The notes under the pieces are model-generated. The model saw only the letters and a program-made list of their open reading frames with translations, searched no databases and had not been told where the DNA came from. Of a stretch of 30,950 bases of DNA, positions 5,064 to 24,123 are shown one piece after another. The stretch spans positions 1-30,950 of IMG/VR virus record IMGVR_UViG_3300044949_001082. The stretch is one strand, 5' to 3'. Positions within the stretch are counted from its first letter, which is position 1; every line of letters begins with the position of its first letter. The position numbers were made by a program, and so were the translations under genes. The stretch is from a virus.

Positions 5064-5130
5064 ATATTGTAGTTTAAATTAGATGTAGTCTACACTATAA
5101 TATACAAAATTCTAAAGACAGTACCAAAAT

Positions 5131-5162
5131 AAAAAACACTCTCATTTCTGAGAGTGTTTTTT
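5131..5162. terminator. Bidirectional intrinsic terminator
   Basis: A near-ideal palindrome: six A, CACTCTCA (5137-5144), a TTTC loop, TGAGAGTG (5149-5156), six T. The 8-bp core stem extends through the A/T tracts, giving a U-tract after the hairpin on either strand. On the minus strand it ends the transcript of the 173-aa gene (5189-5710) and insulates the downstream genes. This is the clearest perfect-stem terminator in the window. Confidence 0.9.
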
Positions 5163-5188
5163 ACTAAACACTAAGAAGCACACACTAA

Positions 5189-18487: not shown

Positions 18488-18566
18488 TGATATAAACTTT
18501 AATAATTTATTGTAATTTTAGACAGAACTCTTCAATAATAATTTACTGAATTTTTATGACTTCTCC

Positions 18567-18607
18567 AAAAACAAAAAGGGAGGTGTACAACAAGTGTACA
18601 CACTCCC
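18567..18607 (-). terminator. Strong intrinsic terminator after the 502-aa gene
   Basis: GGGAG plus GTGTACA (18578-18589) pairs with TGTACAC plus CTCCC on the other side of an ACAAG loop, a 12-bp stem with one bulged A. Read on the minus strand it is followed by UUUUUGUUUUUGG. This is a GC-containing stem with a good U-tract, placed 24 bases after the stop codon. It should define the 3' end of the transcript carrying the head genes and the 502-aa gene. Confidence 0.9.
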
Positions 18608-18631
18608 AAATTGTCATAGGGTATAAATTGC

Positions 18632-21307: not shown

Positions 21308-22324
21308 TTATTGATTCCAGTATTTCTCTACGTTCTTAGTAAGATCCATTAGAATTTCTTCATTTAGAGGGTTTTTAAGATATTCAACCACATCTAAAGT
21401 GTTTCTTCCTAACATAGTAGAACTTTGCATATGATAAATAAAGCCATCACTTTTTGTAGAAATAAACTTATACCAAGAACTATCTTTTACAATGGCTCTA
21501 ATTTTTAGAGTTTCCATATCCAAAGCAGCGGCATCTAAAAATCTCTGTGCAGTTTTAGTTTTATCTTTTTCAAAAAGATCACCATTAATATATTTATCCA
21601 TGTTGTCATAGAAAATATCATGAGGTGTTGACCTTTTATATTGAGTACTATTAGGATCTAATAATTTAGTTACATAAAAAAGCTTGTTCTGATTTTTATT
21701 AAACAGCTTTTCAAGTTCACCAAGAGCTTTATTACGCAACTTCTTAACTTCTGTTTGTAAAGAAGCTGTTTCTTCTAGTTTATCAAGATAGAATTTAGGT
21801 GATACAGCCATTTTACGTGCTTCTTCTAAACTCTTTGCCACAATTGAAAAACCACCAGCTTCAATAGCATAAAGACGAATTAGATCATAAGGGTCTTTGT
21901 CAGGTTCTAGAAAAACAGGTTCATTACCACATCTAATTTTAATCTTTTCCCAAAAATCAAAATTATCAGGTTTCAGAAGTTTTATCTTATTCCAGAACTG
22001 ATCATCATTAGGATCCACTACATTAGCTGCAAGTTCTTTCTCAAGTTGTGATACAATAAGACGAATATGTTTAATCTTTGCTTCTTGCTCATCTATTGGT
22101 AACTGCTTCACTTCAGGTGCAAATTCATTAAGACCTGTTAAGTAACGCTTGATACCATTAATCTCTAAACAAGCAAGTTGCTCTTCATGAAAGGCTCCAT
22201 CAAAAAGACTAAGTCCATACTTCTGAAGTCCCATATTTTCAACTGAAGAGTTGAAATAAGGACGAATAGCAATACTAGATTTCTTGTTTTGTGGGTATTT
22301 TTCCACAATAGTCACACTACTCAT
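21308..22324 (-). CDS. Unrecognised head-module protein (338 aa)
   Basis: I do not recognise a named family. The N-terminus (VTIVEKYPQNKKSSIAIRPYFNSSVENMGLQKYG, in outline) is basic and polar; residues about 75-100 and 165-220 are long charged helices that may form coiled coil (DKLEETASLQTEVKKLRNKALGELEKLF). The C-terminal third is mixed. No catalytic or membrane motif is visible. Its start follows the 179-base structured gap after the capsid gene, and a poly-A/T stretch (AAAATAAAAAAAACC on the minus strand) directly precedes the ATG, which may serve as an A-rich translation enhancer in place of a Shine-Dalgarno site. Likely a minor head or head-completion protein. Confidence 0.65.
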   Translation of the reverse strand: MSSVTIVEKYPQNKKSSIAIRPYFNSSVENMGLQKYGLSLFDGAFHEEQLACLEINGIKRYLTGLNEFAPEVKQLPIDEQEAKIKHIRLIVSQLEKELAANVVDPNDDQFWNKIKLLKPDNFDFWEKIKIRCGNEPVFLEPDKDPYDLIRLYAIEAGGFSIVAKSLEEARKMAVSPKFYLDKLEETASLQTEVKKLRNKALGELEKLFNKNQNKLFYVTKLLDPNSTQYKRSTPHDIFYDNMDKYINGDLFEKDKTKTAQRFLDAAALDMETLKIRAIVKDSSWYKFISTKSDGFIYHMQSSTMLGRNTLDVVEYLKNPLNEEILMDLTKNVEKYWNQ

Positions 22325-22503
22325 GTTTGGTTTTTTTTATTTTAAACTGTGCGGAATTTCCGAACAATTGAACCTGTTGAGAGTTGCAAACTCCCCGTGT
22401 GATCAGTCACGGTGTGCGTACAACAGGTGATCTTAGGATACTATCCTAAGAGGGGGTATCTTTACCCCCGGGTTTGATAAGTCAGGGACCCGGGGGAATC
22501 AGA
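22325..22503 (-). ncRNA. Highly structured intergenic RNA element after the capsid gene
   Basis: In transcription order: CCCCCGGGT/ACCCGGGGG (22496-22488 with 22473-22465); GGGGGTA/TACCCCC (22469-22463 with 22458-22452), which reuses the same five G; CTTAGGATA/TATCCTAAG (22450-22442 with 22440-22432); then an 8-bp outer stem ACCTGTTG/CAACAGGT (22428-22421 with 22379-22372) closing two inner hairpins, CCGTG/CACGG (22412-22408 with 22399-22395) and GAGTT/AACTC (22393-22389 with 22385-22381); finally CGGAA/TTCCG (22362-22358 with 22356-22352). The GC-rich arms stand out in AT-rich DNA. There is no U-tract after them, so it is not a plain terminator. Capsid mRNA 3' stabiliser, RNA processing site, cis-regulatory RNA or DNA-level packaging/replication site are all open. 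Confidence 0.6.
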
Positions 22504-24123
22504 TTAGAATGATCCACCAGTTACAGGGTTTCTCATAACGATCTTCAACACCTTAGTTGGGTCTTTAACCCAGATGGCTGGCATTGTTTGAGTCATGAAT
22601 ACACGGTAACCATTAAAGTTTCCAGAACTTTGGAATCCTTGGGTACGACCCATATAGTCCATAGTACCGTTCTGATAGAACCATTTCAGTTGATTATCCC
22701 AAGAAAGTTTCAACAAGAAAATGTTGTCGTTAGTATTCTCAGTGATATCAAAGATAATGAAATTGTAGCTAGACAGAGGGAAACCATCAATAATAGGATT
22801 CTCAATGTCATTAGTATTAATGTTATCAAATGCAGGATTCAATACAAACTTAACGTTAGCCAAGAAAGGAATAACATATTGAGTGTAAGCAAAACCAAAG
22901 TTGAGATCCATTCCTTTACCAGTGATAGCACCAACTTCAGAAGCATTAATAACAAGACCAGAGTTAACAGCTTCACGTCTAATAGCTTCATTTACAAGAC
23001 GCATACCACCCATACCGGTTTGTACAACCAGTGAACGTTTGGGATCTGGTCCTTGAAACTCCACCTTACCATTGAAGAAGTTAAAGATTTCAGATTTAAA
23101 AAGATCTAGGTTGAAAGAAGCTTTATTGTAAACACGCTTGAAAGAGTTATCAAGCTGCTTCCAAAGACCTACAGACAAACGGATATCATCTGGACCGTCT
23201 TGCTTCACCTTACCACCTTGTCCCCACATCAAGTAGTTCTCAATGTCATTGGCAATTTTAGTGAGGTGAGCAGCTTCAAGAGCTGTAAGGAAAGAACGAG
23301 TAAGTTGACCAGACTGATAAGCTTTCTTTACATAGTCTTTACCCATTTTAGCAGCCATGGTCTCAAGAGAATGAACAGAAGGATCTACATTCTTGTCAAA
23401 GTTACGCCACAGTTCAATTACTGGTACAGTACCATCAGCACGAAGACCACCTTTCAACATCAAATCTGCACGACTAGAAATGCTATAATGTACGTGTGCT
23501 TCTGCACCACCTACATAGTTATAAAACTCACGGAAACCAGCAGATACGTTACCAAGATCGGAAAAACGCTCACCATATTCTCCACGAGCAGAACTCTTAC
23601 GGAACAGTTTGGTACCAACCTTCAAATAACGGTTGTCTAAGAAACGAGTAGTATCACTGTTAACAAGTTGTACAGTGTAAATGAAACCATCACCAGCGGG
23701 AATAATCTCATCTTGTACAATGTACATTTCCACACCGTTGTATTTGTCATAAGTGATGATGTCACCATGTCCAAAAGAACGTTTGTTAATTTTGATTTTA
23801 AATGTTTGACCGTCAACACCTTTGGTAGTGTTAGCAGATTCTACATCTTCTACAATGTAGGGAAGATCCTGAGCTACAGGAACTTGCCATTTGTACTCAC
23901 CACGTGCGTTATCTACAGAAATAACGTTCTTTCCACCAAAGCTAGACATTTGGTACAGAGGCATTTCTACCTTCTGTGCCATAGCCCAAAGATCCACCGG
24001 ACCAAGGTCGGTAGGCTCTGCACTCTTCAGCAGATTAGAAAGGTGGTAAGAATCTACGTGTGAGCTAGTTTGATAGCTGGTATCCCGCAGAAAAATACCG
24101 TTGTTTAAACTCGGAGTAGGCAT
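22504..24123 (-). CDS. Major capsid protein (539 aa)
   Basis: Called from gene order (TerL, portal, scaffold-like, then this), size, and the run of the sequence. The N-terminus (PTPSLNNGIFLRDTSYQ) is followed by helices and an extended segment; residues about 245-300 (SLETMAAKMGKDYVKKAYQ, TALEAAHLTKIANDIENYLMWGQGG) fit a spine-helix region of an HK97-type fold; later strands (SLVVQTGMGGMRLVNEAIRREA; KVLKIVMRNPVTGG) fit the P and A domains. HK97 fold is inferred, not shown. Codon choice appears richer in G/C than in neighbours, as for a highly expressed gene. It lies 32 bases after the scaffold-like gene and is followed by a structured RNA region. No delta-domain protease motif is seen in the window. 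Confidence 0.82.
   Translation of the reverse strand: MPTPSLNNGIFLRDTSYQTSSHVDSYHLSNLLKSAEPTDLGPVDLWAMAQKVEMPLYQMSSFGGKNVISVDNARGEYKWQVPVAQDLPYIVEDVESANTTKGVDGQTFKIKINKRSFGHGDIITYDKYNGVEMYIVQDEIIPAGDGFIYTVQLVNSDTTRFLDNRYLKVGTKLFRKSSARGEYGERFSDLGNVSAGFREFYNYVGGAEAHVHYSISSRADLMLKGGLRADGTVPVIELWRNFDKNVDPSVHSLETMAAKMGKDYVKKAYQSGQLTRSFLTALEAAHLTKIANDIENYLMWGQGGKVKQDGPDDIRLSVGLWKQLDNSFKRVYNKASFNLDLFKSEIFNFFNGKVEFQGPDPKRSLVVQTGMGGMRLVNEAIRREAVNSGLVINASEVGAITGKGMDLNFGFAYTQYVIPFLANVKFVLNPAFDNINTNDIENPIIDGFPLSSYNFIIFDITENTNDNIFLLKLSWDNQLKWFYQNGTMDYMGRTQGFQSSGNFNGYRVFMTQTMPAIWVKDPTKVLKIVMRNPVTGGSF

Follow-up and report, generated by a model that had tools for sequence, protein, structure and literature searches.

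The gap that follows the major capsid gene in this phage DNA encodes a compact RNA of about 57 nt, here called core D, and it is near certain that D is an RNA with a pseudoknot. Its stems and its pseudoknot covary among relatives, it lies on the transcribed strand at one fixed place, it is restricted to a single phage clade and its presence is anticorrelated with that of terminators. D is a new RNA family outside Rfam, of a known kind, and was met in crAss-like phages, which are abundant. Searches of the open-access literature yielded no description of D and no paper describing a structured RNA of crAss-like phages.

The gap and its modules

The window, the whole stretch of 30,950 nucleotides that was analysed, has nearly all its ORFs on the minus strand, with crAss-like head genes for terminase, portal and capsid. 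Close relatives of it were found among IMG/VR viral contigs. Leptolyngbya phage Lbo-JY46 is the nearest phage with annotation, and its capsid protein shares only 29% identity with that of the window; a DNA-level search of phage GenBank records returned only a weak 32-nt match. The gap (22325-22503, 179 bases, minus strand) fills precisely the space from the crAss-type capsid gene to ORF 21308-22324, starting where the capsid gene ends, as the first-pass annotation had placed it.

That annotation had described a GC-rich, strongly structured element without U-tract or tRNA shape, and the description was borne out. On the transcribed strand the gap folds at -61.1 kcal/mol against a shuffled mean of -39.2 (sd 4.0, z -5.5), with 0 of 200 shuffles reaching so low an energy, and its GC content is 0.46 compared with 0.12-0.42 in the other gaps tested. 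It has the lowest z among the tested coding-strand gaps of the window, and of the 342 minus-strand stretches that were scanned it ranks in the top three for structure. The seven inverted repeats counted earlier are a fair account of the predicted fold, which has about seven helices; an exact search gave four true inverted-repeat pairs and six short palindromes. The gaps 18488-18631 and 5064-5188 are also highly structured, and both contain terminator-like hairpins. Positions 82-260 are strongly structured on the minus strand too (z about -5.9, 20 shuffles). No U-tract terminator was found in the gap under study, a terminator-like site with U-tract standing elsewhere in the window at 18583-18601, and ARAGORN reported 0 tRNA or tmRNA genes. 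Rfam 15 (4227 families, curated cut-offs) gave no match in the window, the best sub-threshold scores being far below cut-off, and none in ten relatives.

Over 80 related contigs resolve the gap into modules, which follow the capsid stop in the order hairpin A, optional module B, hairpin C, core D, hairpin E and A-rich leader. The cis-acting phage RNA proposed earlier is strongly supported by covariation, as several modules (A, C, core D and E) and not as the one element that had been described. The features of the window are listed below.

22504..24123, minus strand: major capsid protein gene, crAss-like (Pfam PF23898, Crass_capsid, E 1e-31; PHROG 11589)
22465..22496, minus strand: module A, GC-rich hairpin closely following the capsid stop, without U-tract (fold, inverted repeats, relatives)
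22431..22451, minus strand: module C, hairpin TCTTAGGAT-AGT-ATCCTAAGA (covariation)
22372..22428, minus strand: core module D, three-stem RNA of about 57 nt with loop-junction pseudoknot (covarying alignment; cmsearch 79.7 bits in the window)
22422..22428, minus strand: P1 5' strand ACCTGTT, forming 7 bp with 22372-22378 (covariation)
22415..22417, minus strand: pseudoknot strand GCA in the P1/P2 junction, pairing with TGC 22386-22388 of the P3 loop (covariation)
22396..22411, minus strand: P2 arm, CGTG/CACG stem with apical loop ACTGATCA and self-complementary core GATC (stem covaries)
22379..22395, minus strand: P3, 5-bp stem GGGAG/CTCTC with 7-nt loop TTTGCAA, abutting P1 directly (covariation)
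22372..22378, minus strand: P1 3' strand AACAGGT (covariation)
22345..22369, minus strand: module E, hairpin 3' of D and ahead of the start codon that follows (fold, relatives' sequences)
22325..22344, minus strand: A-rich leader of the AAAACCAAAC type, preceding the 338-aa gene and common to relatives (sequence comparison)
21308..22324, minus strand: next head-block gene, 338 aa (gp338), no family or PDB match

Module C stands 2 nt 5' of D, with a C-tract preceding the hairpin, and covaries in its own right (17 relatives, with double changes in 8 of 9 pairs); module E was found in some relatives only. At 22452-22469 a perfect pairing (GGGGGTA/TACCCCC) can form between the C-tract and the 3' arm of hairpin A, which might act as a switch. 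Module B, absent from the window, is a second structured RNA of about 65 nt that occupies the same gap in about a dozen relatives as a single copy, with conserved GGATAG and TAAAACACCC and a covarying outer stem, and had no match in Rfam. Its loci include L004:7876-7944, L007:7674-7742, L010:7640-7706, L019:8860-8928, L038:7682-7750, L059:7952-8020 and L155:3560-3628.

Fold of core D

The case for core D rests on covariation and not on energy. The extreme energy of the gap comes mostly from the hairpins that flank the core, and D alone is only modestly more stable than its shuffles (median z -1.3, 64 variants). In an alignment of 33 variants from relatives, built without structural input, the stems and pseudoknot keep 96.1% of their pair cells and 14 of 19 pairs are double-changed; double-change cells number 88 in the alignment and 23 in its shuffles, and slid controls were 34-41% paired. 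Of the two outcomes that were to have refuted the earlier proposal, absence of covariation in homologues and a fold no more stable than shuffled sequence, neither was seen. P1 is paired in 93.9% of cells with 4 of 7 pairs double-changed, P3 in 99.4% with all 5 pairs double-changed, and P2 has 4 bp in this alignment. On the coding strand G-U cells outnumber A-C cells by 33 to 4, and selection therefore appears to act on the transcript and not on the DNA.

The pseudoknot pairs, formed by GCN of the junction and N'GC of the loop, are 99% paired in the same alignment, which was made without the pseudoknot, and its third pair appears as A-U, G-C or C-G in 32 of 33 variants. The two pairs that are invariant in this set change in divergent members, from C-G to U-A and from G-C to A-U, giving GUA/UAC in L003, L010, L019 and L052 and ACG/CGU in L001 and L069, so that all three pairs are compensated across relatives. 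Among 64 variants the types GCA/UGC, GCG/CGC, GCC/GGC, GUA/UAC and ACG/CGU occur, a count that is biased because pseudoknot pairing had a part in the choice of rows, the 33-variant alignment being the unbiased test. On the capsid-gene tree the three pairs require at least 12, at least 5 and at least 4 state changes, numbers that recombination in the gap could inflate.

The P3 and P1 3' strands form one unbroken 12-nt paired strand, and in the model of the fold P1 and P3 stack without a break over 12 bp, closed by a 7-nt loop. P2 is lost in L069, L077 and L027 and UUCG-capped in L073, with the rest of the fold kept; P2 is therefore dispensable in some lineages, and the essential part is P1-P3 plus the pseudoknot. 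The conserved nucleotides are GUAY in the junction and YUNRYAA in the loop.

Distribution, neighbours and sister phages

When 2.9 million viral contigs were scanned by pattern only, without reliance on the capsid query, 83 stretches were returned. Strong matches were confined to this phage clade and to the same place, the well-scoring stretches lying between the clade capsid gene and the 338-aa homologue wherever both ends were on the contig. Four pattern matches outside the clade (L105, L106, L116 and L119) were rejected, their model scores equalling chance. Of 12 long phage records searched, 10 contain one copy of D, and in none was a second copy found; in the other two, L019 and L077, no D scored above threshold, but each has a divergent copy that the model does not reach. 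None was found in 296 Bacteroidota genomes, in a search with stricter filters and without positive control.

D was always on the same strand as its neighbours in 45 relatives, and its orientation relative to the capsid gene was constant in the contigs read. The neighbours themselves change. The nearest upstream ORF is the capsid gene in 19 of 45 and another ORF in 26 of 45, which weakens the earlier suggestion of a 3' stabiliser strictly for the capsid gene; downstream, gp338 follows in 25 of 45 and another ORF in 20 of 45, by which the proposed regulator of the 338-aa gene lost ground and a leader for that gene alone was rejected as a general rule. Whichever gene follows, the median distance from the end of D to its start codon is 33 nt (range 3 to 118 nt), and in most genomes D is nearer to that codon than to the preceding stop.

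The gap resembles an insertion hotspot, with small ORFs and LAGLIDADG-type ORFs at several points, and D is usually kept despite them. Free-standing LAGLIDADG-like ORFs lie in the space between the capsid gene and D in L019 (7701-8657), L032 (7680-8624) and L069 (6302-7093), with similar-looking ORFs in L066 and L068. Many relatives have small Lys/Gly-rich ORFs with a MAGNPKTPKS-like start in this space (L033:7702-7929, L029:7032-7184), and the one tested had no Pfam match.

Some members of the wider group do without D. L065 and L072 seemingly have only a simple hairpin in its place and phages of the L079/L080 type lack D, which makes the fold dispensable when the wider group is considered. 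The hairpin of L065 (7633-7668) and L072 (7632-7667) has 12 bp and a loop, CTCGTAA, identical to that of the divergent L001 D; judged by this sequence, it may possibly be a collapsed form of D.

In a sister clade of 80 contigs, with capsids about 79-83% identical to that of the window, D is absent and the gap, mostly 68-102 nt, nearly always has a U-tract terminator. A U-tract hairpin was present in 16 of 55 gaps with D and 78 of 85 without, under a loose terminator definition and in a comparison that is largely between clades and not phylogenetically independent. L045 and L046, which lack D, also have the U-tract hairpin. It is at the position of module A that the sister phages carry their intrinsic (Rho-independent) terminator; the post-capsid place and the hairpin-like module A recall such a terminator, whereas the window gap has no U-tract and D is a pseudoknotted junction.

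Possible roles and related RNAs

The contrast with the sister clade suggests that D is part of a different way of setting the post-capsid transcript boundary. The reading ranked first, held tentatively and at somewhat less than an even chance, is that D is a cis-acting late-mRNA element that took over this boundary. The late structural-gene transcript would carry a modular cis-acting RNA in which D occupies the place of the sister phages' U-tract terminator. We infer that transcription reads through the gap, that the compact D with hairpins A and C would then set an RNA boundary, the fold blocking or directing RNases as a nuclease barrier or processing site, and that the abundant capsid mRNA and the structural mRNAs downstream of it may thereby gain separate fates in expression. 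With its model, pseudoknot, natural variants and terminator-bearing sisters, D is defined well enough for capsid dosage setting in crAss-like phages to be tested.

Second in rank and rather unlikely is a leader of the following gene, a protein- or ligand-binding RNA that would control translation or elongation by autoregulation, as a riboswitch or in a put-like manner. The closeness of D to the next start codon, whichever gene that is, fits a leader role equally well, and the conserved junction and loop nucleotides also speak for it. Direct action of a nascent phage RNA on transcription is exemplified by the putRNA of HK022 (PMC9378689), which, like other processive antitermination RNAs, is structured and acts in cis; no match of D to these RNAs was found in sequence or structure, and D lies in the late structural block, not among early genes. 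The leader reading is at odds with the variable following gene and the varying spacing to its start codon, and no conserved alternative pairing was found: the pairing of the A arm with the C-tract was only slightly better than its swapped controls (own -6.6 against -6.1, 16 of 300 as low) and is not clearly conserved.

Ranked third, and unlikely, is an excised, trans-acting small RNA that would homodimerise through the GAUC of P2, for example as part of a particle or of assembly machinery, in the manner of phi29 pRNA or of the RNA cages of phages. A self-complementary tetranucleotide forms the apex of P2 in each of the 42 distinct full-length segments (38 GAUC, 2 GGCC, 1 UUAA and 1 GUAC); the probability that a random 7-nt loop contains one at some position is 0.23 per segment. 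D is single-copy where found in the long records and sits in the head-gene block. In OLE RNA the identical GGCC/GAUC exchange was taken as evidence of an intermolecular kissing loop (PMC12286853), because neighbouring bases of one loop cannot pair together. The formal pair count for the P2 loop on the alignment is weak, and GAUC is mostly inherited with only four departures; the self-complementarity is thus suggestive of a kissing-loop homodimer and not proof. Homodimerisation through P2 may be put, from these sequences, at about even, and D allows testing whether a phage mRNA element dimerises. That D represents a family of small phage RNAs combining a kissing-loop homodimer, a half-tRNA-like pseudoknotted core and a role of its own late in crAss-like infection is doubtful. 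The trans-acting reading has to contend with the UUCG-capped and P2-less variants, in which the fold is kept and a dimer would not be essential everywhere, with promoter-like sites in the gap region that are no more frequent than chance, and with a TerL of the ordinary terminase type.

The phi29 pRNA assembles into a ring on the packaging motor by means of two different loops that are complementary to each other. Like D, it is a phage-encoded three-way-junction RNA with loops able to pair intermolecularly, the D stems P1, P2 and P3 covarying. In contrast, D has one self-complementary loop (P2), its P3 loop pairing with the junction, and is a 57-nt core inside a late transcript of a phage with crAss-type TerL; what is shown of a common topology is the three-way junction. 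GOLLD, ROOL and OLE are likewise structured and have symmetric kissing loops that covariation supports; OLE shows the exchange described above (PMC12286853), and GOLLD and ROOL are phage-encoded as is D. They differ in being hundreds of nt long, GOLLD and ROOL often near tRNA islands, while D has no Rfam match.

It is improbable that P1 and P3 act as a tRNA mimic, a half-tRNA substrate of RNase P or RNase Z type at which the polycistronic transcript would be cut. The 7-bp P1 abuts a 5-bp stem in a coaxial stack whose 7-nt loop touches the 5' junction, as in an acceptor and T-arm with D-loop contact, and this geometry is kept where P2 is lost (L069, L077). Unlike tRNA-like structures, D has neither CCA nor T-loop consensus, its anticodon-side arm is variable, three Watson-Crick loop pairs replace the G18/G19 contact, and ARAGORN sees no tRNA. 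A DNA-level element for packaging or replication, as also raised earlier, or for protein binding would agree with the several short DNA palindromes and the location among packaging and head genes, and is very improbable given the strand-asymmetric tolerance of G-U, the constant orientation relative to the capsid gene and the non-palindromic covariation of the pseudoknot.
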